Below the pieces are notes generated by a model, which saw nothing but the letters and a program-made list of their open reading frames with translations, did no database searches and was not told the DNA's origin. DNA of 64,000 bases. Origin: an uncultured Alcanivorax sp. (GTDB taxonomy: Bacteria; Pseudomonadota; Gammaproteobacteria; Pseudomonadales; Alcanivoracaceae). The stretch spans positions 62,001 through 126,000 of the forward strand of contig NZ_CAMYIV010000008.1 in NCBI RefSeq assembly GCF_947258575.1, given 5' to 3'. Below are positions 9,493 to 52,783 of this stretch, one piece after another (position 1 is the first letter of the stretch; each line of letters opens with the position of its first letter). A program made the translations under genes and the position numbers.

Positions 9493-9531
9493 GGCAGTTA
9501 ACAGTTAATAGTGAATAGTTCACAGCTCGCG
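9493..9531 (+). repeat. Heptad stop element, copy A
   Basis: GGC, then four 7-base units AGTTAAC, AGTTAAT, AGTGAAT, AGTTCAC, then AGCTCGCG. It is the outer arm of an inverted pair with copy B (9619-9644), with an 87-base GC-rich spacer holding a GGGTGC/GCACCC hairpin at 9585-9604. Copy A is the only copy not next to a stop codon; it abuts the grpE promoter. Confidence 0.85.
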
Positions 9532-9618
9532 ATAGAGCTTCGTGATTACAGAGACCCCGGCGGCCGCGCCCGAAGCCTGCTCGCGGGTGCCTGCATTTGC
9601 ACCCCTCCGGAGCGATCT

Positions 9619-9644
9619 CGCGTAACTGTTAACTGTTAACTGCC
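9619..9644 (-). repeat. Heptad stop element, copy B, at the hrcA stop codon
   Basis: Read on the minus strand directly after the hrcA TAG: GGC, AGTTAAC, AGTTAAC, AGTTA, then CGCG. It faces copy A. The element starts at the very first base after the stop codon. Confidence 0.85.
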
Positions 9645-10694
9645 CTAAAGCTGCGTCAGGGCCGCCGAGAGGATTTTGGCGGTGATATCCACGGTGGGGA
9701 TGACCTTTTCGTAGTCCATGCGGGTGGGGCCGACCACGGCGAGGACGCCCACCGGACCATTGTCTGCCCGGTAAGGAGCCGAGATCAGCGAGTAGTCCTC
9801 GAATGGCTGGAAGCCGGATTCCCGGCCGATGAAGATCTGCACCCCGTCCGCTTTCATGGAGCGCTCCAGCAGGTGCAAGATGTCGCGCTTGTGGCTGAAC
9901 GCATCGAACAGGTTGCGCAACTGACCGATATTGTCGGCTTCTGCGGACTTCAGCAGGTTGGACTCACCGGACACCACATAATCGGAATCCTCCTGCTCAG
10001 TGCGTAATGCCTTGCCCGCGACAGCGACCGCCGTCTCCATCAATACATCCATCTGTGCCCGATCTGCATTCATGGTGTTAAGCAACCCATCGCAGATGCT
10101 GTTCAGGTCACAGCCGGCATAGGTGTGATTGATGTAGTTGGCAGCTTGGCGCAGCTCCACCTCATCGTAATCCCGGTCGGTATGGATGATGCGGTTCTGC
10201 ACCTCGGAGCGGTTGACCACCAGTACCACCAACACCCGCTTGCCCGATAACGGCAAGAATTCCACCTGGCGCAGGGTCGTCACCTCCCGGCGCGGCACCG
10301 CCACCAGCCCGGCCATGCGGGTCAGCTCCGCCAGGGTTCGCGATGCCTGGGCAATCAACTCCTGGGGCGACTGCTCCGGCGCCAGTAACTGACCCAGCTC
10401 CTTTTTCAGTGAGCGGTGGCCCGGACGATCCATGACACTGGATGCCAGCAGGGAGTCCACATACAACCGGTAACCCAGCTCCGTGGGCACGCGCCCGGCA
10501 GACGTATGAGGGCTGGTCAGCACACCAAGATCTTCCAGCTCCGCCATGATATTGCGGATGGTGGCCGGGCTCACGGTGAGCCCACTGCCGGAAGCCAGGG
10601 TCTTGGACCCCACCGGCTGACCGTCGCGGATATGGCGCTCCACCAGCGCCATCAGCAATCGTTGTTTGCGTTCGTTCAGATCCAGCTTCGTCAT
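9645..10694 (-). CDS. hrcA: Heat-inducible transcription repressor HrcA
   Basis: HrcA represses chaperone operons by binding CIRCE and is itself controlled by GroEL. The 349-residue protein has the N-terminal winged helix (LNERKQRLLMALVERHIRDGQPVGSKTLA, SPATIRNIMAELEDLG) and the family block LTSPHTSAGRVPTELGYRLYVD. The C-terminal GAF-like domain has IFIGRESGFQPFEDYSLIS and VGPTRMDYEKVIP. Start ATG at 10694. It heads the heat-shock cluster but is separated from grpE by the heptad element pair and the sigma-32 promoter. No CIRCE sequence was found in the window, so its targets may be elsewhere, for example at groESL. Confidence 0.97.
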   Translation of the reverse strand: MTKLDLNERKQRLLMALVERHIRDGQPVGSKTLASGSGLTVSPATIRNIMAELEDLGVLTSPHTSAGRVPTELGYRLYVDSLLASSVMDRPGHRSLKKELGQLLAPEQSPQELIAQASRTLAELTRMAGLVAVPRREVTTLRQVEFLPLSGKRVLVVLVVNRSEVQNRIIHTDRDYDEVELRQAANYINHTYAGCDLNSICDGLLNTMNADRAQMDVLMETAVAVAGKALRTEQEDSDYVVSGESNLLKSAEADNIGQLRNLFDAFSHKRDILHLLERSMKADGVQIFIGRESGFQPFEDYSLISAPYRADNGPVGVLAVVGPTRMDYEKVIPTVDITAKILSAALTQL

Positions 10695-10836
10695 AGCGGT
10701 ATATGTACCAGAAAATCAGTACGACATTATATAGCCTTCTCGTTCGGAGTTTATCGGGGGCTTACACTGGCGACCGGAATCCCCTAAGATTACAACCACT
10801 GCCCAAAAGAACAGTTATCGTAACAAGGACGTCACC

Positions 10837-11355
10837 ATGACCGACAACAGCAACCCCTACCAGAGCCCCGCCGCCGACACACAGAACCGCCCGACTCTGG
10901 ACAACCCGGCGCTTGCCAGCCGCTGGTATCGCTTTTTCGGTGCCCTGATCGACGGCCTGGTCCAGCTCGCCATTATCGGCCCTATCGTGTTCTTTTCCGG
11001 CACCTGGGCTGACATGATGGCTAACAATGGCGCTCTCGACCTGACCGCCACCCTGGTCTGGTTCATTGTCGGCGAAGTAATCTTCCTGGCCCTGCAGGGC
11101 TGGCTGCTGTTCAACCGCCAGCAGACCATCGGCAAGTGGCTGCTGGGCATGAAAATTATCGGCATGGAGCAGCTGGACGTGCCCCCCGGCAAACTCTACG
11201 GTCTGCGCTATCTACTGTTCCATGTGCTGGCACAGGTGCCCGGCATCAACCTGGTCATGCTTGTCGACCCGCTGCTGATATTCCGCGGTGATCGCCGCTG
11301 CCTGCACGATCTGCTGGCCAGCACCCAGGTGATACAGGTCCCTGCCAGCCGCTAA
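10837..11355 (+). CDS. RDD family membrane protein
   Basis: The 172-residue protein has the RDD signature in its first membrane segment: LASRWYRFFGALIDGL (Arg and Asp), with a matching second RDD-type block near the end, PLLIFRGDRRCLHDLLA. Three or four hydrophobic segments are visible (LIDGLVQLAIIGPIVFF, LTATLVWFIVGEVIFLAL, LLFHVLAQVPGINLVMLV). RDD proteins are small inner-membrane proteins, some linked to sodium or proton exchange; the function here is unknown. The N-terminus starts NPYQSPAAD, a proline-rich cytoplasmic tail often seen in this family. An AAGGA site precedes the ATG. recN begins 35 bases downstream on the same strand. Confidence 0.9.
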   Translation: MTDNSNPYQSPAADTQNRPTLDNPALASRWYRFFGALIDGLVQLAIIGPIVFFSGTWADMMANNGALDLTATLVWFIVGEVIFLALQGWLLFNRQQTIGKWLLGMKIIGMEQLDVPPGKLYGLRYLLFHVLAQVPGINLVMLVDPLLIFRGDRRCLHDLLASTQVIQVPASR

Positions 11356-11390
11356 TCGTCACCCTGACTCGCCCGTTTCGGAGAGATACC

Positions 11391-13058
11391 ATGCTGACCC
11401 ATCTGAGCGTTCGTCACTTTGCCACCGTGGACCAGTTGGAACTGGAGCCGGAGAACGGCCTCACCGCAATCAGCGGGGAAACCGGGGCGGGCAAGTCCGT
11501 GATCATCGATGCCCTGGGCCTGACCCTGGGCGATCGAGCCGACTCCAGCATCGTCCGCCACGGCCACGACCGGGCTGAGGTACTCGCCACCTTTGATGTC
11601 AGCGACAACGCGACCGCCCGCCAGTGGCTGGCCGACCGGGAGCTGGATGATGACGACCAGTGCCTGCTGCGCCGCACCGTACGCGCCGATGGTCGCTCCC
11701 GGGCCTATGTGAACGGCACTCCCACTCCGCTGGCGGAAGTGCGGGAACTGGGCGAGCGGCTGATCAGCATCCACAGCCAGCACGAACACCAGGCCCTGAT
11801 GAAGAAAGAAGCCCATCGGCAGCTGCTGGACAACTTTGCCGACGCCCGCGATCTAGCCAACACCGTTCGCGAACACTGGCGCCACTGGCAAAAAGCGCGC
11901 CGGGCACACGACGATGCCCTGAATCAGGCCCGCGAGCAAAACGAAAAGGAAGAGTTGCTGCGCTTCCAGCTGGAAGAGCTGGACGCCCTCGCCCTGCAGG
12001 ACGGCGAACTGGAACAGCTGGAGCAGGAACAGCAGCGTCTGGGCAACGCGGAAAGCCTGATTCGTACCTGCCAGCAGTCTCTCAACGCCCTTTACGAAGG
12101 CGATGACGGCACCTGCAACGACCACCTCAGCCAGGTCAGCCACTGGCTGGACGAGGCTCGCAACCAGGATGAAGGCCTGACAACCATCGCCGACACCGTG
12201 GAATCCGCCCGCCTGCAAGTGGAAGCCGCCGCCGATGACCTGCGCCATTACCTGGAACGGCTGGACCTGGACCCGGAGCGCCTGGCCCAGGTGGAAGAGC
12301 GGCTCAGCCAGAGCTACACCCTGGCCCGCAAGCACCGCATTCGCCCGGAAGAACTGGTTGAACACCACCGGCAACTGCTGGCGGAGTCCGACGCCCTGGG
12401 CAATGTGGATGCCCATCTGCACGCCCTCTCCGAGCAGGAAGCCGCGGCCCAGCAACAATACATGGACAGCGCCCGCCAGCTCAGCAAAGCCCGCCGCAGC
12501 GCCGCCAAGAACCTCACCCAGCAGGTACAGAAACAGCTCACCGCCCTGAGTATGAAAGCCGCCAAGCTGGAAGCCCAGCTGGGCGAATGCGCCCCTGGCG
12601 CCGACGGCCTGGAAGACGTGGAATTCCTGTTCTCTGCCAACCCGGGCCAGCCCCTCAAGCCGCTTGGCAAAGTGGCTTCCGGCGGCGAATTGTCACGGGT
12701 AAGCCTGGCGATCCAGGTGATCTGCGCCCGCAACCTGACAGTACCGAGCCTGGTATTCGATGAAGTGGACGTGGGTGTCGGTGGTGGCGTGGCCGAGATC
12801 GTCGGCCGGCTGCTGCGTGAACTGGGCAGCCACGCCCAGGTGCTATGCATCACCCACCAGCCCCAGGTCGCCAGCCAGGGTCACCAGCACTGGCAGGTCC
12901 ACAAGATTCAGGGGGACGACACTACCCATACCCGTATCCAGGGGCTGGATGACAACGCAAGAATTGAAGAGTTGGCGCGGATGCTGGGCGGCGTGGAAAT
13001 CACCGAATCCACCCGCAACCATGCCAGGGAGATGCTGAGTAAGGCTCAGGCAGCGTAG
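11391..13058 (+). CDS. recN: DNA repair protein RecN
   Basis: RecN is an SMC-like ATPase that works early in double-strand-break repair. In the 555-residue protein, Walker A is GETGAGKS at residues 29-36, followed by the RecN-specific VIIDALGLTLGDRAD. Long alanine- and glutamate-rich coiled-coil arms fill the middle. The C-terminal lobe has the ABC signature SGGELSRVSLAIQ and Walker B LVFDEVDVGVGGGVAE. Length matches the family. A copy of the heptad stop element begins 3 bases after its TAG. I saw no clear LexA box in the short gap upstream, and it may be read from the RDD gene promoter. Confidence 0.98.
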   Translation: MLTHLSVRHFATVDQLELEPENGLTAISGETGAGKSVIIDALGLTLGDRADSSIVRHGHDRAEVLATFDVSDNATARQWLADRELDDDDQCLLRRTVRADGRSRAYVNGTPTPLAEVRELGERLISIHSQHEHQALMKKEAHRQLLDNFADARDLANTVREHWRHWQKARRAHDDALNQAREQNEKEELLRFQLEELDALALQDGELEQLEQEQQRLGNAESLIRTCQQSLNALYEGDDGTCNDHLSQVSHWLDEARNQDEGLTTIADTVESARLQVEAAADDLRHYLERLDLDPERLAQVEERLSQSYTLARKHRIRPEELVEHHRQLLAESDALGNVDAHLHALSEQEAAAQQQYMDSARQLSKARRSAAKNLTQQVQKQLTALSMKAAKLEAQLGECAPGADGLEDVEFLFSANPGQPLKPLGKVASGGELSRVSLAIQVICARNLTVPSLVFDEVDVGVGGGVAEIVGRLLRELGSHAQVLCITHQPQVASQGHQHWQVHKIQGDDTTHTRIQGLDDNARIEELARMLGGVEITESTRNHAREMLSKAQAA

Positions 13059-13061
13059 AAA

Positions 13062-13102
13062 GGCAGTGAAGAGTTAATAGTGAAGAGTTAACAGCGGCGC
13101 GG
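13062..13102 (+). repeat. Heptad stop element, copy C, after recN
   Basis: GGC, then AGTGAAG, AGTTAAT, AGTGAAG, AGTTAAC, then AGCGGCGCGG. It is followed at once by a hairpin whose arms are GCGCGGGC (about 13097-13104) and GCCCGCGC (about 13131-13138). There is no inverted partner on the fur side. Confidence 0.82.
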
Positions 13103-13168
13103 GCAGGCCCCAAAGAACCGGCAGCGCCCAGCCCGCGCACAAACGCCGGCGCACCACGCAGGACGGAG

Positions 13169-13256
13169 GGTGGATTAGCCGCAGGCGTAATCCACCATGC
13201 CTGCCTCACCATAACGCAACCGGTAAAAGGTGGATTACGCCTGCGGCTAATCCACC
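13169..13256. repeat. Doublet of inverted 28-bp palindromes (REPIN-like)
   Basis: Two 28-base units, 13169-13196 and 13229-13256, are exact reverse complements of each other. Each is itself an imperfect palindrome with arms GGTGGATTA and TAATCCACC. The 32-base spacer separates them. This is the layout of REP doublets (REPINs/BIMEs), mobilised in trans by RAYT transposases. None is in the window. It lies between the convergent recN and fur genes and may also serve as their transcription barrier. Confidence 0.8.
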
Positions 13257-13287
13257 CTACCCAGGCCACCTGGGCCGGGGTGCTGGA

Positions 13288-13689
13288 TCACTTCTTCGGC
13301 TTTACGTACAGCACCAGCGAGTGGTCCATGATTTCATAGCCGTGTTCCTCGGCAATGGCGTGCTGGCGTTTCTCGATCACGTCATCCATGAACTCGATCA
13401 CCTGGCCGGTTTCCATGCACACCATATGATCATGATGGTCCTCGTCCGCCAGCTCGAAAACGGCAGAGCCACCCTCGAAGTTGTGGCGCAGCACCATGCC
13501 CGCCTGCTCGAACTGGGTCAGCACACGGTAGACGGTGGCCAACCCCACATCCTCGCCGGCGTCCATCAGCGACTTGTAGATATCTTCGGCGCTCAGGTGG
13601 CGCTCTTCAGATTTCTCCAGTTGCTGCAGGATTTTCACCCGCGGCAGGGTCACTTTAAGGCCCGCTTTTCTGAGATCCTGATTATCCAA
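13288..13689 (-). CDS. fur: Ferric uptake regulator Fur
   Basis: Fur is the iron-responsive repressor of siderophore and iron uptake genes. The 133-residue protein has the winged-helix block LRKAGLKVTLPRVKILQQL, DIYKSLMDAGEDVGLATVYRVLTQFEQAG and RHNFEGGSAVFELA. The metal-site region is DEDHHDHMVC. As in Pseudomonas Fur it lacks the Cys-rich tail of the E. coli protein and ends LVLYVKPKK. The only start that keeps the normal N-terminus is TTG at 13689, with GGAG nine bases upstream; no ATG or GTG is available. This suggests a deliberately low translation rate. Confidence 0.96.
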   Translation of the reverse strand: MDNQDLRKAGLKVTLPRVKILQQLEKSEERHLSAEDIYKSLMDAGEDVGLATVYRVLTQFEQAGMVLRHNFEGGSAVFELADEDHHDHMVCMETGQVIEFMDDVIEKRQHAIAEEHGYEIMDHSLVLYVKPKK

Positions 13690-13908
13690 TGCGTATGCTC
13701 CAATTTGCCAAAAGGTGGCGATGCCCCTGAATCCGTGACTTCATCGCGGCGCCTGACGCAAGCCTTTGCCGCCACAGAGGATTTTTTCAGTCGATCGTAT
13801 TCAGATAATACGACCCTCCCTCAGAAAACCCACTGTGACAACAAATTCTCACGCCGTGCATCCACGCTGAAGCCACAGATTCAGGGCGATATGAAAAAAG
13901 CGGGAAAC

Positions 13909-13936
13909 TTGTACCGCTACTGCAAGTCTGTATTAT
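13909..13936 (+). promoter_or_regulatory. Sigma-70 promoter of bamE
   Basis: TTGTAC (13909-13914), a 16-base spacer and TATTAT (13931-13936). Transcription would begin near 13943, about 24 bases before the bamE ATG. It faces away from fur, whose own promoter must lie in the same 277-base gap. Confidence 0.6.
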
Positions 13937-13966
13937 CGCCCGAACACTTAGTGAAGTCGAAAAACC

Positions 13967-14464
13967 ATGCCACGAATTCTAGCCGTCCTTAGTCTGACAG
14001 CCCTGCTGGCCACCACTGGCTGCAGCTCCTTGCGCTTTCCCGGTGTCTACCGGATCGATATTCCGCAGGGCAACTTCGTCACCGAGGAGATGCTCGGCGA
14101 ACTCGAGCCCGGCATGAGCCCGGAGCAGGTGCGCTATGTGCTTGGTGCCCCCACCCTGGTGGACCCGTTCACGCCTGACAAATGGTTTTATCTGATGACC
14201 TACCGCCCCGGCAAGGGCGATAACGTCAGCCAGCAGATTGTGCTGCACTTCGAAAACGGCAGCTATAGCCGCCATGAAGGCGAAGTGATCGAGGATTTCC
14301 GCAAGAAAACCAGCTCACAACAGGACCGCGAATTGCAGCGCAAACTGGATGAGCGCAAGCAGGAAGAAACCAGCCCCGAGCCCGCCCCTGCTACCGAGCA
14401 ATCGGCGCCAGATCCGGAAACACTGCCTCAGGAACCGAGCGACCCGGGCCAGCCGGCAGCCTGA
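13967..14464 (+). CDS. bamE: Outer membrane protein assembly factor BamE
   Basis: BamE (SmpA) is a lipoprotein subunit of the BAM complex that inserts beta-barrel proteins into the outer membrane. The 165-residue protein has a lipoprotein signal: ALLATTGCSSLRFPGVY with the lipobox Cys at residue 19. It then has the family core YRIDIPQGNFVTEEMLGELEPGMS-type block, EQVRYVLGAPTLVDPF and WFYLMTYRPGKG. The C-terminal third is a low-complexity Glu/Gln/Pro tail (EETSPEPAPATEQSAPDPE) longer than in E. coli and probably disordered. It stands divergent from fur, as in Pseudomonas, and converges with rnfH nine bases downstream. Confidence 0.97.
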   Translation: MPRILAVLSLTALLATTGCSSLRFPGVYRIDIPQGNFVTEEMLGELEPGMSPEQVRYVLGAPTLVDPFTPDKWFYLMTYRPGKGDNVSQQIVLHFENGSYSRHEGEVIEDFRKKTSSQQDRELQRKLDERKQEETSPEPAPATEQSAPDPETLPQEPSDPGQPAA

Positions 14465-14473
14465 TCCGCACCA

Positions 14474-14773
14474 TCAGCGGGCCTTTTCCGCCGCCCGCTT
14501 CTTGCGATTGAGCTTCGGATCCGCCTGCAGCGGGCGGTAGATCTCCACCCGCTCGCCAGGCTTGAGCACCTGGCCGGCCGGATTGGCCACCACCTTGCCG
14601 AAAATCCCCATGGGCGCCTTGTCCAGCACCAGCCCTTCGAACTGCTCTTCGATACCGGACAGCTTTGCCGCCTCCAGCATGGTGGTACCTTCCGGCACAT
14701 CCAGACCGATCAGGCGCTGCTTGTCCGGCAGCGCATAGGTCACTTCCACATGAATACGCGCATCATCGGCCAT
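14474..14773 (-). CDS. rnfH: RnfH family ubiquitin-fold protein
   Basis: A 99-residue RnfH (UPF0125) protein with a beta-grasp fold: IHVEVTYALPDKQRLIGLDVPEGTTMLEAA, then the family block LGIFGKVV-like GIFGKVVANPAGQVLKPGERVEIYRPLQADPK in order, and a lysine/arginine tail NRKKRAAEKAR. The biochemical role is unclear. RnfH is usually the partner of RatA (ratA-ratB/rnfH) between bamE and smpB; here RatA is absent and a sodium symporter takes its place. The ATG overlaps the symporter TGA by one base (TGATG), so it is translated by coupling. Confidence 0.92.
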   Translation of the reverse strand: MADDARIHVEVTYALPDKQRLIGLDVPEGTTMLEAAKLSGIEEQFEGLVLDKAPMGIFGKVVANPAGQVLKPGERVEIYRPLQADPKLNRKKRAAEKAR

Positions 14774-16443: not shown

Positions 16444-16452
16444 CGTCCGCCT

Positions 16453-17679: not shown

Positions 17680-18036
17680 GGGGCCGACCTGGATTCGACG
17701 CCGGTATTGAATTCTGTGGTGCATGCCGAGAAGGTCACGAGTCTCGTAAATCATTTGTGGCACATTAAAGCAATCGCTAACGACGATTCTTACGCACTAG
17801 CAGCTTAAACCCTGCTTATCGCCAATCGACCCTGCCTGTGGGGAAGAGCGGCGAGCATCGCAACACAGGCTCGCAGCAAAGTCCGCCCCGGATGGCGCTG
17901 TTAAAACTCTTAGGGGCCCGGCTTTCACGTCCTGCCAGTTGGGTTGTGAAGGCTTAAATCAATAAACTTGGCTAAGCATGTAGATCTGCAGATGGATTGC
18001 TGACGGACGCGGGTTCGATTCCCGCCGGCTCCACCA
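17680..18036 (+). ncRNA. ssrA: Transfer-messenger RNA
   Basis: The 357-nucleotide RNA rescues stalled ribosomes together with SmpB. The 5' end GGGGCCGACC pairs with the 3' end CGGCTCC, and the encoded ACCA ends at 18036. The T-arm GGGTTCGATTCCC is present. The tag reading frame runs 17776-17808 and encodes ANDDSYALAA followed by TAA; the resume codon is GCT. The tag keeps the ALAA end recognised by ClpXP and the AND start bound by SspB. Ser replaces the usual Asn or Glu-Asn before Tyr. A strong terminator follows 15 bases later. Confidence 0.97.
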
Positions 18037-35710: not shown

Positions 35711-35745
35711 AAGAAGCCGCACCCCTACCAGGAGCGCGGCTTCTT
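35711..35745. terminator. Terminator between amidotransferase and leuA, part of a heptad element locus
   Basis: AAGAAGCCGC and GCGGCTTCTT pair around a 15-base loop, with A-rich and T-rich flanks, so it works for both converging genes. It sits 19 bases from heptad element copy D and is close in sequence to the hairpins at 43655 and 52677. Confidence 0.85.
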
Positions 35746-35763
35746 CGTTTTCAGCTCACTCAA

Positions 35764-35811
35764 CGCGACCTAGCGCCGCTGTTAACTATTCACTATTAAC
35801 TGTTCACTGCC
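35764..35811 (-). repeat. Heptad stop element, copy D, overlapping the leuA 3' end
   Basis: Read on the minus strand: GGC, AGTGAAC, AGTTAAT, AGTGAAT, AGTTAAC, then AGCGGCGC and further to TCGCG. Its units encode the last nine residues of LeuA (GSEQLIVNS) and its TAA stop at 35782-35784. Confidence 0.85.
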
Positions 35812-38887: not shown

Positions 38888-38915
38888 AGCGTCTAGCTGC
38901 TAGCGACTAGACGCG
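38888..38915 (+). repeat. Heptad stop element, copy H (CTAG type)
   Basis: AGCGTCT, AGCTGCT, AGCGACT, AGACGCG, five bases past the TAG of the flavodoxin-like gene. CTAG occurs three times at 7-base spacing, giving TAG in three frames on both strands. It forms an inverted pair with copy I. Confidence 0.82.
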
Positions 38916-38938
38916 GGTTGGCTTGTCAGTAATCGCGA

Positions 38939-38976
38939 GTCTGTGCCCGCGCCCATGGTTGGCCGCGGGCACAGAC
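38939..38976. terminator. Long hairpin inside the H/I element pair
   Basis: GTCTGTGCCCGCG and CGCGGGCACAGAC form a perfect 13-bp stem around a 12-base loop. It lies centrally between copies H and I and between two converging genes. No T-run is present. Confidence 0.65.
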
Positions 38977-38999
38977 ATTAAGCCCCCAAAGAGCGCCAT

Positions 39000-39037
39000 C
39001 GCGACTCGAAGCTAGCCGCTAGAAGCTCACAGCTGCC
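39000..39037 (-). repeat. Heptad stop element, copy I (CTAG type), at the enoyl-CoA hydratase stop
   Basis: Read on the minus strand directly after the TGA: GGC, AGCTGTG, AGCTTCT, AGCGGCT, AGCTTCG, then AGTCGCG. The GGC start and CGCG end are the same as in the TTAA-type copies. Confidence 0.83.
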
Positions 39038-42360: not shown

Positions 42361-43596
42361 GTGCGCGAGATCATTCTGATTCAGGTATCCGGCAGTGACC
42401 GTCCCGGTCTGACCGCCGCTTTCACCCGGATTCTGGCCCGTTACCGGCTCAATATCCTGGATATCGGCCAGGCCGTGATCCACGACACCCTGTCGCTGGG
42501 TATCCTGGTGGAAACCCCGCCAGACGCGGAATCCTCGGCGGTGCTCAAGGATCTGTTGTTCGAGGCCCACAAGCTGAACATCAATGTGCGCTTCCGTCCC
42601 ATCGACGAAGACCGCTACGAGGAATGGGTGTCCGGCCAGGGCAAGGACCGCCACATCATCACCCTGCTGGCGCGCAAGATCACCGCTGAACAACTCTCCG
42701 ACGTGACCGCCACGGTGGCAGACAACGGCCTGAACATTGACAGCATCGCCCGCCTGTCCGGCCGGGTGCATCTGGAAGGGGAAGCGCTCAACGAGGACAG
42801 TCGCGCCTGCATCGAGATTTCCGTGCGCGGTGAGCCGAAAGACGGCGAAGCCATGCGAGCCGCCTTCCTCAGCATCGCCAACGAACGCAATCTGGACATC
42901 GCCTTCCAGCGCGACAGCGCCTTCCGCCGTAACCGTCGCCTGGTGGTGTTCGATATGGATTCCACCCTGATCCGCTCGGAAGTCATCGACGAGCTGGCCA
43001 TGGAAGCCGGGGTGGGCGAAGAGGTGGCTGAAATCACCGAGCGGGCCATGCGCGGTGAGCTGGATTTCAACGAAAGTTTCCGGGCCCGGGTGGCCCTGCT
43101 CAAGGGGCTGGATGAAGGCGCCCTGGAGCGGGTGCGCGAACGCATCCAGCTCACCGAAGGGGCGCAACGGCTGATCAGCACCCTGCGCGCCCTGGGCTAT
43201 CGCACGGCCATTCTATCCGGCGGCTTCACCTGGTTCGGTCAGTGGCTGCAACAGTTGCTGGGCATCGATTATGTGTACGCCAACGAGCTGGAAATCGAGA
43301 ACGGCCAGGTCACCGGCCGGGTAGTCGGGCAAATCGTCAACGGCCAGCGCAAGGCCGATCTGCTCAAGCAGATCGCCACCCAGGAAGGCATCAGCCTGGA
43401 ACAGGTTATCGCCGTGGGCGACGGCGCCAACGACCTGCCCATGCTCGGCGAAGCCGGCTTGGGCATCGCCTTCCGCGCCAAACCCCTGGTAAAACAGAAC
43501 GCCGAACAGGCCATCTCCACGCTGGGCCTGGACGGGATTCTTTATCTGATCGGGGTACGGGACAAGGATCAGGCAGAACTGCTTAAGAGCAATTAA
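42361..43596 (+). CDS. serB: Phosphoserine phosphatase
   Basis: SerB makes serine from phosphoserine. The 411-residue protein is the long Pseudomonas-type form with two N-terminal ACT domains (ILIQVSGSDRPGLTAAF and IITLLARKITAEQLSDV) and a C-terminal HAD phosphatase. The nucleophile Asp198 and acid Asp200 are in VVFDMDSTLIRSEVIDELA, motif II is AILSGGFTWF and motif III IAVGDGANDLPMLGEAGLGIAF. The start is a GTG at 42361 with GGGAG eight bases upstream; a nearby ATG is out of frame. The last two codons, including the TAA, lie inside heptad element copy E. It converges on fimX. Confidence 0.97.
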   Translation: MREIILIQVSGSDRPGLTAAFTRILARYRLNILDIGQAVIHDTLSLGILVETPPDAESSAVLKDLLFEAHKLNINVRFRPIDEDRYEEWVSGQGKDRHIITLLARKITAEQLSDVTATVADNGLNIDSIARLSGRVHLEGEALNEDSRACIEISVRGEPKDGEAMRAAFLSIANERNLDIAFQRDSAFRRNRRLVVFDMDSTLIRSEVIDELAMEAGVGEEVAEITERAMRGELDFNESFRARVALLKGLDEGALERVRERIQLTEGAQRLISTLRALGYRTAILSGGFTWFGQWLQQLLGIDYVYANELEIENGQVTGRVVGQIVNGQRKADLLKQIATQEGISLEQVIAVGDGANDLPMLGEAGLGIAFRAKPLVKQNAEQAISTLGLDGILYLIGVRDKDQAELLKSN

Positions 43597-43627
43597 TAGT
43601 TAATAGTGAATAATTAATAGTTGCGCG
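43588..43627 (+). repeat. Heptad stop element, copy E, containing the serB stop
   Basis: GC, then AATTAAT, AGTTAAT, AGTGAAT, AATTAAT, then AGTTGCGCG. The serB TAA (43594-43596) is the TAA of the first unit. It forms an inverted pair with copy F around the terminator at 43655-43689. Confidence 0.85.
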
Positions 43628-43654
43628 AGACAGCTTTGCCTTGTCTTTAAACAT

Positions 43655-43689
43655 AAGAGGCCGCGCCCAGGCTATGGGCGCGGCCTCTT
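43655..43689. terminator. Bidirectional terminator between serB and fimX, inside the E/F element pair
   Basis: AAGAGGCCGCGCCCA and TGGGCGCGGCCTCTT form a long perfect stem. Almost the same hairpin sits beside copy G at 52677-52712, so it appears to be part of the element. Confidence 0.9.
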
Positions 43690-43715
43690 GCGTTTCAGAC
43701 AAGACAGACCCAAAC

Positions 43716-43754
43716 CGCGAATTATTAATTATTCACTATTAACTATTAATTGCC
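43716..43754 (-). repeat. Heptad stop element, copy F, after fimX
   Basis: Read on the minus strand: GGC, AATTAAT, AGTTAAT, AGTGAAT, AATTAAT, AATTCGCG. Unit by unit it matches copy E in inverse orientation. It begins four bases after the fimX stop. Confidence 0.85.
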
Positions 43755-46067: not shown

Positions 46068-47834
46068 TTAAAGACTGGACCAGATTGAATCCAGATCACC
46101 TTCATCATCATCGCTCACCGGCCTGACAGGAGCCGCTGGGGTCGCCATATCCCGGAACGGGTACTGGCTGAATCCAGATGCCCCCTGAGTGCGGCGCATC
46201 AACTGTACGCGACGGGGCTCGCCGGCCTCAACCAGCTCCACCTTAACGCCTTCGTTGAAACCCACGGTAGGCAGCAACAGGGTGGCCGGCTGGCCAACAC
46301 CGGTCAACTCCGGCAGCAGGATGGCCCGCATGAAATCACTGTCCTCTCCCTGCTTGCGCAGCGCGCGCGCCGCTACCGGTCGCCCCCCCGGAGCCAGCAA
46401 CTCCACCCCGAAACGAGCACCGTGATTGGGTAACTGGGTGACCCAGCGCACCACCGCCAGCATCCACTGGCTTTCCGGGTGATCACGCAGGGCCAGCAAC
46501 TCCCCCGTGCGCATCAGGCTTGGCGTATTGCCTTGCCAGGACAGGCAATAGCCACCGGGGCTGGCATTGACCTTCTGGCAATGATAGCTCTCCGGCAGCG
46601 CAGCCTCGCTGCGAAACGAGGAGTCGGGTTTGCCGATATCAATCGTTTCATTGGGGAATTCAGACTGATACGCCGTGGCCCAGGGATCTTCATGTTGTTG
46701 CTTTTGCCGGGTGCTCACTTTGATATTGCGCAGGAAGGGATTGTTCTCTTCTCCATCCCCCATCACCGTCAGGCTGCCGCGCTCGATCAGGGTTTCAAAC
46801 GGCACCTTGCCGGACAGAAAATAATGTACGCCCACCAGCCCGAAGCACAGCTCGATCTCGCCGCTTTCCGCCATGCGTTTGAAGGCCCGCTCAGTAAGCG
46901 CGCCCCACACCTGCTGCAGATGGCTCATCATGCTGTCAGTGAGCCCTTTGGGCACGACCAGCTCGCTGCTCTGCGGATCGCCTTTCCAGGCACTGATGGC
47001 CTGCACCAACCGGGTAGAATCAATATAGCGCCAGCTATCCGTTGCCTGGGAGGCGTGGGTGCGATAAATCGGCGGACGATCCGCCTGCAGATCGAACACG
47101 AACAGGTCTTCATCATCACTGGCGGTTTTGATCTCGATCAGATCCCCCCAGGTGAACGCGGCCTTGAACAGGGCTGCCAGTTCCTGCTGGCGCAATTGAT
47201 TGGGCTTGGCGGTGGCCAGTAACAGACAACGGGCATAGGCAGACTGGATACTGGAATTGCCCTTCTCGTCTTCCACCGGCGAAGCCGCGATGCCGTGCAG
47301 CTCCGCCAGCAGATAAAGTTGATGCAACTCCAGCCAGAGATGGCGAGGGCTGGGGAAGTACAACTGGTAGCAACGCAACAGCGTATCGCCAAGGGCGCTG
47401 ATAGCACGATGGATCGATGTGGTCACTGCGCGCCGAACCGTTTTGTCCTTGAGCTTACGCATCCCCCTCACGGCCACCAGTTTGTAACCATTGGCCAGGT
47501 GCCCCTGCAGGGCCTGGGCCAGACTGGCCACGCGACGCGCCTTGTCCGGCAAAACCAGAGACTGATTCAGGTAATGTTTCTGCAGGGAATCGCTGACATG
47601 CAGAATGGAAGGGCGCACCACTTCCAGCAACTGGAAGCGCTGCTTGGAGTCGATGTGCAGCCGATTCAGCTCCTGAATGAACTGATAGAGCTGACGGGCC
47701 GTTTCCCCCATGTTCATAACCGGGAGAGCATCAACCCATTGTTGCAGCTTCTTTGGCTGATCAGCGCCAAGTGTCAGGTGCGGCAAATCCTGCTCGGGCA
47801 GTTTCAAACGCACCGTTTGGGCTGGTTGCTCCAT
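46068..47834 (-). CDS. PilZ-like domain protein upstream of fimX
   Basis: A 588-residue cytoplasmic protein in the position of PA4958 of P. aeruginosa. Most of it is alpha-helical with no recognisable enzyme motif. Near residue 450 it has VNASPGGYCLSW, which fits the second PilZ c-di-GMP-binding motif (D/N-x-S-x-x-G); the arginine motif ahead of it is less clear. The end is acidic (VSDDDEGDLDSIWSSL). ATG 47834 is chosen because AAGGA lies ten bases before it; the earlier codons are not conserved-looking. It is likely to act with FimX in c-di-GMP control of type IV pili, by context. Confidence 0.68.
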   Translation of the reverse strand: MEQPAQTVRLKLPEQDLPHLTLGADQPKKLQQWVDALPVMNMGETARQLYQFIQELNRLHIDSKQRFQLLEVVRPSILHVSDSLQKHYLNQSLVLPDKARRVASLAQALQGHLANGYKLVAVRGMRKLKDKTVRRAVTTSIHRAISALGDTLLRCYQLYFPSPRHLWLELHQLYLLAELHGIAASPVEDEKGNSSIQSAYARCLLLATAKPNQLRQQELAALFKAAFTWGDLIEIKTASDDEDLFVFDLQADRPPIYRTHASQATDSWRYIDSTRLVQAISAWKGDPQSSELVVPKGLTDSMMSHLQQVWGALTERAFKRMAESGEIELCFGLVGVHYFLSGKVPFETLIERGSLTVMGDGEENNPFLRNIKVSTRQKQQHEDPWATAYQSEFPNETIDIGKPDSSFRSEAALPESYHCQKVNASPGGYCLSWQGNTPSLMRTGELLALRDHPESQWMLAVVRWVTQLPNHGARFGVELLAPGGRPVAARALRKQGEDSDFMRAILLPELTGVGQPATLLLPTVGFNEGVKVELVEAGEPRRVQLMRRTQGASGFSQYPFRDMATPAAPVRPVSDDDEGDLDSIWSSL

Positions 47835-48012
47835 GAAGATAATCCTTATCTCGGTGGCACCCAGATGGGGAACCCTGAACAATTTCTTCTGGAAGCCTGC
47901 CAACGACTTCGCACGGCTAAAATATGCAAGAAATTGTTAGGCGAGCCCTCTAGTTATTAAGTAGTAGTTCTTGTTTTCTATGTGTCCTTCGTCACATGAC
48001 TTTACGATACCG

Positions 48013-48026
48013 TTACAGACCTGTAA
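48013..48026. promoter_or_regulatory. Short perfect inverted repeat, possible operator
   Basis: TTACAG-AC-CTGTAA lies in the gap between the PilZ-like gene and epmB, 179 bases upstream of the former. Its regulator is unknown. Confidence 0.35.
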
Positions 48027-48056
48027 ATATTGTGTTCGCGCCGACCAGCGGATGCC

Positions 48057-49085
48057 CTAGCCCGCCAATACGGTCTTTGCCGGCTCCCCGGGCTCTTCCC
48101 GGGACAGTCTGGGGACCAGAAAACCTGGTAAGCGGCTGCGCAACTCCTTATGCAATTGCATGGCAGCCGAATCCGACACCGCAAAGTGCGCCGCCCCTTG
48201 CACCGCATCCAGCTGGTGCAGGTAATAGGGCATCACCCCGGCCTCATGGAGCCGGTCCGACAGCGCTTCCAGCGCATCCACCGAATCGTTCACCCCGGCC
48301 AGCAACACACTCTGATTCAGCAGAGTGATACCTTGCCGTCGCCACTGCCGGCAGCGATTCACCAGCTCATCGCTGATTTCCCGGGAGTGATTGGCGTGCA
48401 ACACCAGGGCGGTCTGCCAGCGTGCATCCGAGAGCAGCGCCAGCAGGGGCCCATCCAACCGCCCGGGAATGACCACCGGTGTGCGGCTATGAATGCGTAG
48501 CCGGCGCAGATGGGGGATCTTCGCCAGTGCCGCCAGCAGTTCCTGCAAACGGCGATTGTTCAGGGTCAGCGGGTCACCGCCGCTGAGGATCACCTCACGG
48601 ATGTCCGAGCGCGATGCCAGCCATTCCAGCGCCTGGTCCCAGCGCTTGCCGCTCAGATGGCTCTGGTAGGGAAAATGCCGGCGAAAACAGTAGCGGCAGT
48701 GCACCGCACAGGCGCCGGTTACCACCAGCAGCGCCCGGCCATGGTACTTGTGCAACAACCCGGGCACCGGAGTGTGGGAGGCTTCCTCCAGCGGATCGCT
48801 GCTGTAGCCCTCCTCTTCCCGCAGCTCCGCCGGCACACTGAGCACCTGCCTCAACAGCGGATCATCCGGGTTGCCCGGCTCCATCAGCCGCACATAGCCA
48901 CGGGGCACGCGCAGGGGGAAATCCTGCGCTGCGGCCAGCATTTCGGGCAGCGACTCCGCCTCAAGCTGCAGCAGGCTCAGCAATTCCGCCGGATCGGTAA
49001 TCAGGTCCGCCTGCTGGCGCTGCCAGCCCGGCAACTCCCAACCAGCTTCTTCCTGCGTTATGATTGCCACCCTCTGCGACGCCAT
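48057..49085 (-). CDS. epmB: EF-P beta-lysylation 2,3-aminomutase EpmB
   Basis: EpmB is the radical-SAM, PLP-dependent lysine 2,3-aminomutase that turns alpha-lysine into (R)-beta-lysine for EF-P. The 342-residue protein has the cluster motif [19 protein letters not shown] (CxxxCxxC), [16 protein letters not shown] and a C-terminal PLP region ([17 protein letters not shown]). AAGG lies eight bases before its ATG. It is divergent from efp, with only 24 bases between the two start codons, so each promoter must reach into the opposite gene. Confidence 0.96.
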
Positions 49086-49109
49086 ACATCAACCTTTGGA
49101 ACAACATTT

Positions 49110-49679
49110 ATGGCCAACTATTCTACCAGTGAATTCAAGTCCGGCTTGAAAGTAATGCTTGATGGCGATCCCTGCGCCATCATCGAGAACGAATTCGTCA
49201 AGCCCGGCAAGGGCCAGGCGTTCAGCCGTGTCCGCCTGCGCAACCTGCGCAGCGGCAAGGTCTGGGACCGCACCTTCAAGTCCGGCGACTCCCTGGAAGG
49301 TGCCGACGTGATGGACGTGTCCATGCAGTACATCTTCAACGACGGCGAATTCTGGCACTTCATGGACCAGACCAGCTTCGAACAGAAGCAAGCCGATGAA
49401 GCTGCCGTGGGCGACGCCAAAAAGTGGCTGAAAGAAGAAGACATCTGCGAGGTCACTCTCTACAACGGTGAGCCCCTGTCTGTCAGCCCGCCGAACTTCG
49501 TGGAACTGCAGATCGTGGAAACCGACCCGGGCCTGAAAGGCGACACCGCCGGCACCGGCGGCAAGCCCGCCACCCTGAGCACCGGCGCGGTTGTCCGTGT
49601 GCCACTGTTCGTGCAGGAAGGCGAAATCGTCAAGGTGGACACCCGCACCGGCGATTACGTGGGTCGCATCAAGAGCTAG
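49110..49679 (+). CDS. efp: Elongation factor P
   Basis: EF-P rescues ribosomes stalled on polyproline. The 189-residue protein has the modification loop at Lys34 in [19 protein letters not shown], the KOW-like N-domain and the C-terminal OB domains ending GDYVGRIKS. Presence of epmA and epmB beside it means Lys34 is modified with beta-lysine, not rhamnose. The ATG at 49110 is preceded only by a weak GGA site. epmA starts three bases after its stop, so both are cotranscribed. Confidence 0.98.
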
Positions 49680-49681
49680 TC

Positions 49682-50617
49682 GTGACCGACTGGCAACCCA
49701 CCGCCTCGCTGGAGGCCATCAAGGCGCGCGCCGAGCTGCTGAGCACGGTGCGCGCTTTTTTTGCTGCCCGCAACATACTGGAAGTGGACACCCCACAGCT
49801 GGCCCGCTACGGCGTCAGCGACCCGCACATCCAGTGCATCCCGGTACCCGGTTACGGCTACCTGCAAAGCTCACCGGAATACCACATGAAACGCCTGCTG
49901 GCAGCAGGCAGCGGCCCCATCTACCAGATCTGCAAGGCCTACCGGGATGGCGAAGCCGGCGGCCGCCACAATCCTGAATTCACCATGCTGGAATGGTACC
50001 GCCCCGGCTTCGAACTGAATGATCTGATTCAAGAATGCCTAATCCTGTTCGCCGAACTATTCCCCGGCGCCCCGTCAGAGTGCTTCCGCTTCCGGGACCT
50101 GTTCAGTGACATCACCGGCCTGGACCCACTCACCGCCAATGACGCAGACCTGATTGCCCACGCCGAATCCCACGGCGCCCCGGAAGGCCTGAACAAAACC
50201 GCCGCCGTGGACTACCTGATGGCCACCCGGGTAGAAGCCGCTCTGCCCGCCGAGCAACTGTCCGTGGTCACCGACTTCCCCGGCTGGGCCGCCGCCCTGG
50301 CGCAGACCCATGAAGACAAAGACGGCGTCACCGTCGCCCGCCGCTTTGAGATCTATTATCGGGGGCTTGAACTAGCTAACGGCTATCAGGAGCTGACCGA
50401 TGGGGAGGAACAGAGGCGACGATTCAAGAGGGATAATGCGCTGCGGCGGAAACTGGGACTGAATACCATGGAGGCAGACCCCTATCTACTCGCAGCAATG
50501 GCCTCATCTTTACCCGAATGCAGTGGCGTCGCCGTCGGGGTTGAGCGACTTCTCATGACCCGTCAGCGTTTCAGCAATATCAACCAGGCCTTGATGTTCC
50601 CCTATAGCAGAGCCTGA
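49682..50617 (+). CDS. epmA: EF-P lysine aminoacyl-transferase EpmA (PoxA/GenX)
   Basis: EpmA is a truncated class II lysyl-tRNA synthetase that attaches beta-lysine to EF-P. The 311-residue protein lacks an anticodon-binding domain and has the class II motifs ILEVDTPQLARYG, SPEYHMKRLLAAGSGPIYQICKAYRDGE and GRHNPEFTMLEWYRPGF, plus the end block GVAVGVERLLM. Start is GTG 49682, three bases after the efp stop. Together with efp and epmB this gives the complete two-enzyme pathway; EpmC, the hydroxylase, was not seen. Confidence 0.97.
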   Translation: MTDWQPTASLEAIKARAELLSTVRAFFAARNILEVDTPQLARYGVSDPHIQCIPVPGYGYLQSSPEYHMKRLLAAGSGPIYQICKAYRDGEAGGRHNPEFTMLEWYRPGFELNDLIQECLILFAELFPGAPSECFRFRDLFSDITGLDPLTANDADLIAHAESHGAPEGLNKTAAVDYLMATRVEAALPAEQLSVVTDFPGWAAALAQTHEDKDGVTVARRFEIYYRGLELANGYQELTDGEEQRRRFKRDNALRRKLGLNTMEADPYLLAAMASSLPECSGVAVGVERLLMTRQRFSNINQALMFPYSRA

Positions 50618-50924
50618 CTCCCCCAAAAACGCCAACGCCCTCCCCTCTTTTGTCGGCGAACCACGCCTGTATTCACAGGAAAAGGGCGCCATCAAGCGCT
50701 CATTCTCCGACAGCCAATGCATTTAAAATGATCTATCACAACGCCCGACATTCCGCCTTCTATATAGTTTGCTGCCGCTTGTATGTCACCGCGAGCGCGC
50801 TCACGCTGCGCAGAGAGATGTGGATTGCTGAATTTTGTGGCGACGAGGCAGACTCCGCTCCTTACCTGGCGGTTTATGCCAACCCCAAGCCAGATACACA
50901 GACACTGATCCTATGAGGAGCACT
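50618..50924. other. Intergenic region before the BCCT transporter
   Basis: No gene, hairpin or repeat that I can support is seen in these 307 bases. The region is AT-richer at 50725-50790 (including TATATAG), the most likely place for the transporter promoter. Confidence 0.45.
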
Positions 50925-52628
50925 ATGGAGAGGCTAAGACGGTGGAGAAACCAGCTACTCGGCGATGTAGGCACCGTCTTCTATCTATCGCTGCTGTTGA
51001 TTGCCGTCTTTCTGGCGGCAGCGATGGCCGACCCCCAGGCGGTGCAGAGGCAAGCGCAGAAAATCCTCGATGCAACGGCCAATAATTTTGGCTGGCTGTA
51101 CCTGATGACGACCAGCGGCTTTGTTCTGTTCGCCCTGGGCCTGGCCTTTTCCCGTTTCGGCAGTATTCGTCTTGGGCCGGATGACGAGCCACCGGAGTTC
51201 AGTTTCAAAAGCTGGCTGGCCATGATCTTTTCGGGTGGCATGGGCGTTGGCCTGGTGTTCTGGGGGGTAGCCGAACCCATGATGCATTTTAACTCCCCTC
51301 CCCTGGGGATCGGCACACCTCGAACCGCAGAAGCGGCACAGACAGGTATGCGCTATGCTTTTTTCCATTGGGGGCTGCATCAGTGGGCTAATTTTACGGT
51401 GGTGGGGCTGGCCATTGCCTACGTGCGTTTCCGGCACAACAGCCACGGGTTGATCAGTGAGACCTTCAGGCCCTTGCTCGGTGAAAGAGTGGATCACGGC
51501 TGGGGCAAAGCAATCGACATTCTGGCTGTCGTCTCCACTCTTTTTGGTGTCGCCACCACGCTCGGGCTGGGTGCGCTGCAGATCAACAGCGGGCTCGCCA
51601 GGCTCACCAGTGTGTCCTACGGGGCAACGCCGCAACTACTGATCATGGCCGGGCTCGGTCTGCTGTTTATTCTCTCTGCCATGACACCCCTGAAGTGGGG
51701 GATCCGCTATCTGAGCAGTGCCAACATGGCACTGGCGGCGGGTCTGTTACTGTTTGTACTGATACTCGGCCCCACCGCGTTCATCTTCAGCGAATTCACG
51801 CAAACTGTCGGCGAATATCTGGGCAACATTGTGCAAATGAGCCTGGTGACCACCCCTTATTCCAGTGAACACTGGGTGCAGCAGTGGACCATTTTCTACT
51901 GGGCCTGGGGCCTTAGCTGGGCACCTTTCGTGGGCAGCTTTATCGCCCGTATTTCCAAAGGCCGCTCAATTCGCGAGTTTGTCCTTGGTGTCATGATCGT
52001 GCCAGTGATCCTGAGCATGCTCTGGTTCTCCACCTTTGGCGGGGCAGCCATCCACTTCGAGTTATTCGGGCAAGCAGGTATCGCTGACGCCGTTGCACAG
52101 GAAGTACCAGCAGGGCTTTATGTACTGCTGGAGCAGCTGCCAGGCGGATTCTATGCCGCGATTGGCGCAATCCTTCTGGTCGCCATGTTTGTGGTCACCT
52201 CGGCAGACTCCGCCACCTTCGTGCTGGGCATGTTTACCTCCAAAGGCATCCTCAACCCTACCCGCTTTGTGCGCATCCTGTGGGGCGTGGTGCAGCTGTT
52301 GATGGCGTCAGCACTGCTACTCAGCGGCGGCCTGCTCGGCCTTCGCACCGTCTCCATTGTCGCCGCATTCCCGTTTATGTTGCTGATGGTGCTGATGGCT
52401 TATTCCCTTTATCTGGACCTGGCTCTGGAATCACGCCGCCGAGAAGAGAGAGACAAACTGCTGAATGAACGGATTGAACGGCTGCTACTTCGAGAATCAG
52501 AACGGGAAGCGGAACGACTGGCGGCAGAAGAAATACACCCCAGCGCACCGGAGACGCCACACCCTGAGCCTGAAGAGGCCGATGCATTGCAGTCAAAGCA
52601 GGCTGCAGTGGGCGATAAACCCAGCTGA
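50925..52628 (+). CDS. BCCT family transporter (betaine/choline/carnitine type)
   Basis: A 567-residue secondary transporter, probably sodium- or proton-coupled uptake of a quaternary amine such as glycine betaine for osmoprotection. Family blocks are IFSGGMGVGLVFWGVAEPMMHF, RYAFFHWGLHQWANFTVVGLAIAY, IFYWAWGLSWAPFVGSFIARISKGRSIREF in order, and SADSATFVLGM. About twelve membrane helices are seen, then an 80-residue charged cytoplasmic tail (SRRREERDKLLNERIERLLL) that may sense osmotic or ionic state. I start at ATG 50925, with GAGGAG five bases upstream; ATG 50913 is an alternative. No nearby osmolyte genes were seen. Confidence 0.93.
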   Translation: MERLRRWRNQLLGDVGTVFYLSLLLIAVFLAAAMADPQAVQRQAQKILDATANNFGWLYLMTTSGFVLFALGLAFSRFGSIRLGPDDEPPEFSFKSWLAMIFSGGMGVGLVFWGVAEPMMHFNSPPLGIGTPRTAEAAQTGMRYAFFHWGLHQWANFTVVGLAIAYVRFRHNSHGLISETFRPLLGERVDHGWGKAIDILAVVSTLFGVATTLGLGALQINSGLARLTSVSYGATPQLLIMAGLGLLFILSAMTPLKWGIRYLSSANMALAAGLLLFVLILGPTAFIFSEFTQTVGEYLGNIVQMSLVTTPYSSEHWVQQWTIFYWAWGLSWAPFVGSFIARISKGRSIREFVLGVMIVPVILSMLWFSTFGGAAIHFELFGQAGIADAVAQEVPAGLYVLLEQLPGGFYAAIGAILLVAMFVVTSADSATFVLGMFTSKGILNPTRFVRILWGVVQLLMASALLLSGGLLGLRTVSIVAAFPFMLLMVLMAYSLYLDLALESRRREERDKLLNERIERLLLRESEREAERLAAEEIHPSAPETPHPEPEEADALQSKQAAVGDKPS

Positions 52629-52676
52629 ACACGCAAGGGGACATGCCGAGCCGGTAAAAAGCATTCCCCTCAAGCA

Positions 52677-52712
52677 AAAGAGGCCGCACCCAGGCATGGG
52701 CGCGGCCTCTTT
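52677..52712. terminator. Bidirectional terminator after the BCCT gene
   Basis: AAAGAGGCCGC and GCGGCCTCTTT pair around a CCCA/TGGG inner stem. It is nearly identical to the hairpin at 43655-43689 and lies 26 bases from heptad element copy G. Confidence 0.88.
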
Positions 52713-52737
52713 CATCTCAGCATCAACAACCCGACCT

Positions 52738-52783
52738 CGCGAGCTATTAACTATTCACTGTTAACTGTTAACTATTCACTGCC
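52738..52783 (-). repeat. Heptad stop element, copy G, after the alpha/beta hydrolase gene
   Basis: Read on the minus strand, one base after the TGA at 52785: GGC, AGTGAAT, AGTTAAC, AGTTAAC, AGTGAAT, AGTTAAT, then AGCTCGCG. With five units it is the longest copy. No inverted partner is on the BCCT side. Confidence 0.85.

Follow-up and report, generated by a model that had tools for sequence, protein, structure and literature searches.

Heptad-armed palindromes at gene ends in an uncultured Alcanivorax sp.: a putative bidirectional terminator between convergent genes

Examination of 64,000 nucleotides from an uncultured Alcanivorax sp. (assembly GCF_947258575.1, contig NZ_CAMYIV010000008.1, positions 62,001 to 126,000; this whole stretch is referred to as the window) revealed six copies of an abundant, fast-evolving gene-end element. 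Its long form is a palindrome of about 165 bp, with a strong central hairpin and, on each side, an arm of four 7-bp units (heptads). An earlier note on this DNA had described nine short intergenic copies of a heptad repeat, and a repeat does lie at each of the nine positions it gave, but these are the arms of six elements and not nine copies: 9493 and 9619, 38888 and 39000, and 43588 and 43716 form inverted pairs, while the arms at 13062, 35764 and 52738 are alone, with no partner in the arm listing. The six elements are as follows.

9493..9646, no strand assigned: element 1, between the tandem genes hrcA and grpE, with arms at 9496-9523 (+) and 9621-9641 (-); its centre holds an apparently decayed hairpin (GGCGGCCGCGCCCG at 9559-9572).
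13062..13104, + strand: element 2, a lone arm of four heptads (13065-13092) followed by AGCGGCGCGG, 6 bp past the recN stop codon.
35711..35808, - strand: element 3, a hairpin (AAGAAGCCGC..GCGGCTTCTT, 35711-35745) and one arm (35781-35808) that holds the 3' end of the 2-isopropylmalate synthase gene.
38888..39030, no strand assigned: element 4, of the CTAG heptad class, with arms at about 38888-38912 (+) and about 39003-39027 (-) and a long central hairpin (38939-38976) whose stem (GTCTGTGCCCGCGCCCA..) is unlike the others.
43588..43753, no strand assigned: element 5 (slot A below), of the AATTAAT class, with arms at 43591-43618 (+) and 43724-43751 (-) and a hairpin at 43655-43689; it occupies the whole gap between two convergent genes, and the stop codon of the left gene (43594-43596) lies within the first heptad.
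52679..52784, - strand: element 6, a hairpin (52679-52710) and, directly next to the stop codon of an alpha/beta-hydrolase gene, a single arm with five heptads (52746-52780); the left arm is absent.

For element 2, neither a second ARTKRAY arm nor a hairpin of this type was found at 13062. An inverted repeat at 13170-13255 (GTGGATTAGCCGCAGGCGTAATCCAC / GTGGATTACGCCTGCGGCTAATCCAC) adjoins its lone arm, and appears to be a separate element resembling a repetitive extragenic palindrome (REP), which may have displaced the second arm of element 2. The GAGGCCGC hairpin, which the earlier note had placed beside many of the copies, is present at only two of the six loci (43655-43689 and 52679-52710), the others, apart from 13062, having a different or decayed hairpin.

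The main sample comprised 464 kb of the same genome, that is, the window, where the repeat was first noticed and which is included in all counts from this sample, and 400 kb from another contig; this represents about 13% of the 3.52-Mb genome. The less biased counts are those of the motif-free scan, the gene-end scan, the stop-codon placement and the arm listing in the 464 kb, for which genes were called by a codon-usage script and not taken from an annotation. A pooled set of 167 arms and 53 pairs includes orthologous copies from two conserved slots (A and B) as well as loci fetched by heptad or hairpin pattern.

From the outside inwards, the element consists of GGC or GC, four ARTKRAY units, ARYNNCGCG, about 27 bp of free sequence and the hairpin, followed by the mirror image. 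Arms of exactly four units account for 29 of 35 in the 464-kb listing, which was made at a slightly looser cut-off and in which the arm at 224998 is probably a chance match, and for 133 of 167 in the pooled set; this four-unit rule replaces the "three to five" heptads of the earlier note. In a heptad, the second and fifth bases are purines and the seventh is mostly a pyrimidine; among 532 heptads, position 4 is T or G, with A once and C never. The third unit is the odd one, with G at position 4 in 104 of the 133 four-unit arms; the same position is T in 88 arms for unit 1, in 105 for unit 2 and in 107 for unit 4. Fifteen inward-facing pairs make up 30 of the 35 arms, with a gap of 97-108 bp in thirteen and of 57 and 61 bp in two, and the spacer measures 103-107 bp in 41 of the 53 pooled pairs. 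This spacing of about 105 bp is close to ten helical turns, an agreement that we set aside since phasing is inseparable here from common descent.

The hairpin (GAGGCCGCGYCCA-loop-TGGRCGCGGCCTC) is flanked by T-rich sequence on both strands. All eleven matches to its GGCCGC pattern in the 464 kb lie between arms, ten of them in complete elements and one (52682) lacking the left arm, so that the hairpin noted earlier as lying beside the copies is indeed associated with them but belongs to the element itself. In the pooled set the core hairpin occurs in 42 of 53 elements, and the automated choice of hairpin is wrong in a few elements; the distance from arm to hairpin is 35-37 nt in 74 of the 84 halves of these 42 elements. 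At positions 10-24 before the hairpin, identity between copies is 0.31-0.37 in the window's genome and 0.26-0.33 in genome G004, against 0.28 expected from composition, and the length of the spacer is thus kept more than its sequence. A single hairpin is the predicted fold of the whole slot A element (-99.1 kcal/mol, z -16.0); its part up to the end of the hairpin has a fold z of -7.3, with a strong GC stem.

The abundance of the repeat is far beyond chance. A genome-wide search of the kind that the earlier note had proposed, for AGTNAAN repeated three times, returned 150 + 132 matches in the 3.52-Mb genome, whereas the reversed control gave none. A motif-free scan of the 464 kb found 27 arrays of period 7 and 0-3 for each other period from 2 to 15, apart from eight of period 14, a harmonic of 7. 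Downstream of 245 gene ends, a strict period-7 array was present at 25 (19 of 96 convergent and 6 of 149 tandem ends), and an array of any other period from 4 to 11 at one only. Mean lag-7 identity reaches 0.315 at convergent 3' ends, with other lags except 14 at 0.281 or less; tandem ends have 0.281, barely over lag 3 (0.279), with lag 14 raised to 0.291, and divergent promoters have 0.238. In the 464 kb, 14 inverted pairs of arrays with matching units have period 7, and each of the remaining periods between 5 and 12 has 0-1; in the same pair scan, 19 of the 28 pairs from outside the window's genome stem from 19 named loci that had been fetched by pattern. If 15 pairs per 464 kb hold throughout, the genome contains more than 100 copies.

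The bias toward gene ends, also anticipated by the earlier note, was confirmed in the 464 kb. After arms in repeated contexts had been dropped, 29 of 33 arms had a sense stop codon within -27 to +9 bp of their outer edge, the stop overlapping the arm in 15 of these 29, and the remaining four had no sense stop within 400 bp. When gaps of 40 bp or more are sorted by gene orientation, those with arms are 14 of the 48 between convergent genes, 3 of the 149 between tandem genes and 1 of the 52 between divergent genes. With a terminator-type hairpin in its centre, the element therefore agrees with the 3'-end cassette that had been suggested. In the window, eight of the nine arms contain a sense stop or lie within about 11 bp of one, for which the earlier figure of about 5 bases was too tight; the sole arm away from a sense stop is that at 9493, which faces the start of grpE. 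The distance from stop codon to hairpin is 38-74 nt (21 values, 11 hairpins).

The element is not restricted to one strain. The exact 30-base arm pattern was found in 19 stretches of a collection of named genomes, 17 from Alcanivorax, one from Alloalcanivorax and one from a metagenome-assembled genome of the Alcanivoracaceae, and the hairpin pattern is present in all 17 genomes of the genus, with 9-45 matches each. Heptad classes, named by the letters at positions 2 and 5 (GA, AA, AG and GG), are used very unevenly: 20-mers with A and with G at position 5 number, respectively, 313 and 17 in the window's genome, 10 and 38 in G004, 77 and 64 in G002, 60 and 69 in G009, 164 and 90 in G010, 212 and 0 in G003, 408 and 4 in G007, and 0 and 2 in G015. 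The reversed control of the G-at-5 pattern gave 10 in the window's genome, 0 in G004, 12 in G002, 4 in G009, 5 in G010 and 13 in G007; the pattern does not rise above its control in the window's genome, G005, G007 and G011, and because of this control the G-at-5 counts of the window's genome and of G007 are meaningless.

Four slots (A to D) were compared across the genus. The slot A element is present in 16 of the 17 genomes; G009 reads N at this place, G013 partly N, and the arms of G015 are degenerate. Its classes are AATTAAT, AATTGAT, AGTTAAC or AGTTGAC, with 1-5 units per arm; a second table, which requires two units, leaves some of these arms blank. The two arms of G006 belong to different classes. 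At slot C the class switches while the spacer remains, by eye, orthologous. Heptad differences between species at conserved slots run through all units of an arm and usually through both arms. Close relatives were compared in two pairs, a third (G014 and G016) having given no entries. Between the window's genome and G002, the slot A element is 77% identical and its flanks 95.5%; G008 and G011 differ at slot A by the gain or loss of one heptad in place. The syntenic comparison that the earlier note had called for thus found slot A occupied nearly throughout the genus, and none of the few slots examined was a clean empty site.

Several other changes were observed in relatives. In a short element of the GCCAGAC class (L236 1433-1516 compared with G011), the 18-nt centre differs at 10 positions with equal length; the arms are conserved, a different small stem results, and the flanks are 97.2% identical. 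At slot B, the hrcA-grpE gap, relatives such as L103 (G005), L108 (G001) and L116 (G004) carry REP-like palindromes inside the gap, with GTAGGAGC or TAGGAGCC..GCTCC motifs, sometimes beside a surviving heptad arm. The neighbouring grpE-dnaK gap of G001, G007 and G016 has a short inverted pair of the GACGYCN class after grpE, which was not seen in the other species listed. Very long CTAGAAG arrays, an expansion of the heptad, occur at G005:C1:35847-35990 (about 20 units) and G002:C12:29426-29660 (about 33 units).

The inverted-pair plan is also followed by heptads of other classes, namely AAGCTNC, CTAG/CGAGCTN, AGTTNAA, CAAGTTN, ACGCNNC, CGAGTYN and GACGYCN, which on our reading, aligned by eye, share a core NN[AC]G[CT]NN. 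The spacing is mostly long in AAGCTNC, AGTTNAA, CAAGTTN and ACGCNNC, and short in CTAG/CGAGCTN, CGAGTYN and GACGYCN. One stretch (L276 of G018, 286-540) has the arms of an AAGCTTC pair interleaved with those of an AGTTGAA pair, which suggests that the one was built across the other. The AGTKAAY pattern was found in 2 of 54 genera and in 23 of 94 genomes, a count that includes the window's genome. AAGCTNC arrays extend to further families of the order, being present in 14 of 293 genomes and 7 of 118 genera; 15 stretches with them were read, and 9 showed inverted pairs as judged by eye. No inverted pairs of any period were found in 367 kb from 11 genomes of other families, and no period-7 inverted pairs in 240 kb of three further genera (g2, g3 and g4), one of which (g3) has single arrays.

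The reading that we favour, with moderate confidence and from the sequence, is that of a dispersed palindromic gene-end element serving as a putative bidirectional intrinsic terminator between convergent genes, to which proposals on the arms and on the spread of the element are added. Its firmest part concerns the hairpin, which by its position, symmetry and stem is predicted, very probably correctly, to terminate transcription arriving from both sides. In E. coli, the terminator tR2 is almost wholly repressed at short distances downstream of a stop codon and attains its full strength past about 30 bp (PMC4824070, in the portion consulted); compared with this, the 38-74 nt between stop and hairpin suggest that arms and spacer would put the hairpin beyond the reach of the ribosome. 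That they hold the last translating ribosome at a distance from the hairpin in this way has about an even chance of being correct. Each arm would offer four adjacent 7-bp sites to a putative DNA protein that binds cooperatively, as a ribbon-helix-helix (RHH) protein does on parS of pSM19035; we propose this candidate role tentatively, by analogy. The specificity of such a binder, and not base pairing or stop codons, would then keep the heptads alike, a reading favoured by the keto base at position 4, the purines at positions 2 and 5, and the fact that the arms of an element share their class but not their detail. In the AT-rich classes the arm would often have become the stop codon of the gene. 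As for its history, it is reasonably likely that whole elements were once dispersed and that the copies now undergo conversion and reshuffling at their sites.

Several observations weigh against this reading. The T-tract after the hairpin is interrupted (CTCTTGCGTTT); a simple terminator scan of the region scored 35711-35745 fully and 43669-43686 partly, and returned 22 sites where shuffles gave 15.0. The core of the hairpin is invariant through the pattern used to find it, and covariation in the flanks goes little beyond shuffles (0.747 against a mean of 0.702 and a maximum of 0.758), the loop-side pairing being 0.848 against 0.821 shuffled (maximum 0.877) and that of the outer part 0.518 against 0.548; we therefore claim no covariation. 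The several heptad classes within one genome would require several binders or one tolerant binder, and G015 is nearly devoid of arms, with no strict array at 93 gene ends, yet keeps nine hairpins. The long arrays, of about 10 units of AGTGAAC and 20-33 units of CTAGAAG, indicate that slippage is also at work. Neither a transposase nor, in the few slots compared, a target duplication or clean empty site came to light, and no binding protein or mobiliser was identified, the only search made for one being that for the Y1_Tnp family.

A competing explanation was that of the earlier note, in which selection has shaped the arms to stop ribosomes in every frame ahead of the terminator. In 129 of the 167 ARTKRAY arms the inward sense strand does have stops in all three frames, whereas the outward strand has them in 11 of 167, and the overlap of the gene's own stop with the arm in about half of the cases fits such a purpose. 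Nevertheless, these all-frame stops depend on the class: they occur in 87 of 108 GA, 20 of 20 AA and 20 of 26 AG arms, but in only 2 of 13 GG arms; among the 38 arms built from heptads other than ARTKRAY they occur in 1, and 19 have no inward stop at all; in AAGCTNC this holds for 11 of 12 arms, though the inverted-pair plan is common to these classes. Since 7 and 3 are coprime, any repeated heptad with one stop covers every frame, and four copies of a random heptad of 25% GC do so in 57% of cases. An A at position 4 would do as well but is practically absent, and units of 4, 5 or 8 bases would be equally good, where only 7 stands out in the scan of pairs of period 5-12. Stops in all frames are probably a by-product and not the design, and selection for them is an improbable origin of the arms. 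It is still less probable that the whole forms a single long RNA or cruciform stem whose arms are kept to pair, as in elements resembling REP or enterobacterial repetitive intergenic consensus (ERIC) sequences. Such a stem agrees with the folding of slot A as one hairpin. The arms of an element agree in class, at position 5 in 52 of 53 pairs (shuffled mean 41.1) and at position 2 in 50 of 53 (shuffled mean 35.8). Within species and class, however, the finer choices match no more than shuffles (42 pairs with at least four units in both arms), T/G agreement being 0.601 against 0.660 and C/T agreement 0.603 against 0.606. Unmatched T/G choices are what protein sites would give and a paired stem would not; moreover, G006 has one class per arm at slot A, and lone arms persist. 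The same lack of match in K and Y choices disfavours, at fine scale, a quasipalindrome correction that would keep the arms alike.

Two further explanations concern the origin of the element. It could be a plain miniature inverted-repeat transposable element (MITE), present or past, with heptad inverted ends and surviving only next to stop codons, where it is harmless. This is somewhat unlikely, even though a short palindromic repeat with inverted ends and no gene, in more than 100 copies if the rate in the 464 kb holds, patchy between species and divided into subfamilies with matching arms, is what a MITE would look like, and though the slot A difference between the window's genome and G002 concerns the whole element. 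The copies are not near-identical; the occupation of slot A in all the genomes but the one that reads N suggests vertical inheritance; the arms of slot C change class around a spacer still recognisably orthologous; and arms also flank quite different terminators. No autonomous partner with the same ends was found in the 464 kb, where no inward arms enclose a gene-sized gap and the only wider case is 22 kb apart. It is distinctly unlikely that functionless replication slippage by 7 nt, with template switching in the palindrome, made and homogenised the arrays, although the one-heptad change between G008 and G011 and the very long arrays are in its favour, as is the report that heptads are the commonest long repeat unit in most genomes surveyed, for which a 7-nt polymerase contact was proposed (Mrazek 2007, as cited in the part of PMC4679880 consulted). 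Slippage should erase the odd third unit, which has persisted, and yields neither four units, near-fixed spacing nor inverted pairing; nor have the arms been corrected to match in detail.

The statement of the earlier note that no named family has this design was nearly right. At gathering score, the tmRNA gene (17680-18036, tag ANDDSYALAA) was the only Rfam match in the window, with none for the elements, and no Alcanivorax repeat of this kind was found in the literature searched, most subscription journals being outside it. A like plan with G-rich heptads is described by Rehm et al. (2015; PMC4692102), and what follows applies to the portion of that paper available to us. The GGGAATC heptamers of Xanthomonas prefer four units, a number linked there to G-quadruplexes; they form convergent inverted pairs (70 in Xcc and 75 in Xac), the downstream repeats are in sense orientation, no more than 50 bp from stop codons, which they partly overlap, and their gene context is mostly kept between species while length varies. 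The Alcanivorax repeats share with them the 7-bp unit, the preference for four, the inverted pairing and the sense-strand place at stop codons, and are probably the same kind of object without the G-quadruplex. They differ in their AT-rich arms, which are incapable of forming G-quadruplexes, several heptad classes and an ARTKRAY consensus devoid of GGG or G-tracts, and in lying mostly in convergent gaps, where those of Xanthomonas accompany mostly aligned genes (16% convergent). Repeated GGGAATC units contain no stop codon on that strand; such an array was found in one of 369 genomes sampled in the taxonomic class, where one locus is an inverted pair of three and four units. The common hairpin, the near-fixed spacing, the many classes per genome and the class changes at conserved slots do not appear in the same portion of that account.

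Other heptad systems are more distant. The TAACTGA heptamers of Beggiatoaceae and cyanobacteria (MacGregor 2015; PMC4679880, in the sections seen) are also 7-bp direct repeats, for which stop codons and a limited overlap with gene ends were noted, and their reverse complement TCAGTTA resembles AGTTAAC; in the main genome, however, they lie mostly upstream of start codons, in 169 direct sets against one indirect, and those sections report no terminator hairpin. The RHH ParB protein (omega) of pSM19035 binds one dimer per 7-bp repeat and needs at least four contiguous repeats (PMC9499535, again from the part consulted), as would be offered by the four or more contiguous units of the Alcanivorax arms; its WATCACW repeats, however, form a plasmid partition site of 7-10 units that overlaps promoters, and differ from ARTKRAY.

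Palindromic elements dispersed in bacterial genomes are also well known. The EFAR repeats of Enterococcus faecalis are palindromic elements of about 170 bp, a size near that of the Alcanivorax element, which replace stem-loops, and the REP and bacterial interspersed mosaic elements (BIME) are palindromic, intergenic, dispersed and tied to RAYT transposases; to our knowledge, neither EFAR nor REP and BIME have heptad arms or heptads. The window's genome has two Y1_Tnp (RAYT) matches, one of them over the cut-off, and this family search gave no link between RAYT and the heptad elements.

Judging from the part of it consulted, the paper of Rehm et al. is the only published account that we found of a four-unit, inverted heptamer plan hugging stop codons. 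Because the AT-rich arms of Alcanivorax keep the number, the inversion and the position, an explanation of the number four by G-quadruplexes cannot be general. It is conceivable, although quite unlikely, that inverted pairs of four heptads at gene ends constitute one bacterial superclass, comprising those of Alcanivorax, of other Pseudomonadales and of Xanthomonas relatives, which would be read as DNA by a cooperative four-site protein whose switches of specificity would convert all eight heptads of many elements; if true, this superclass would act at 3' ends across the chromosome, independently of both G-quadruplexes and stop codons. The question of the four-unit plan can now be tested in a marine oil-degrading genus, in which orthologous gene-end slots with all units differing between species provide a natural experiment on the cohesion of tandem repeats.

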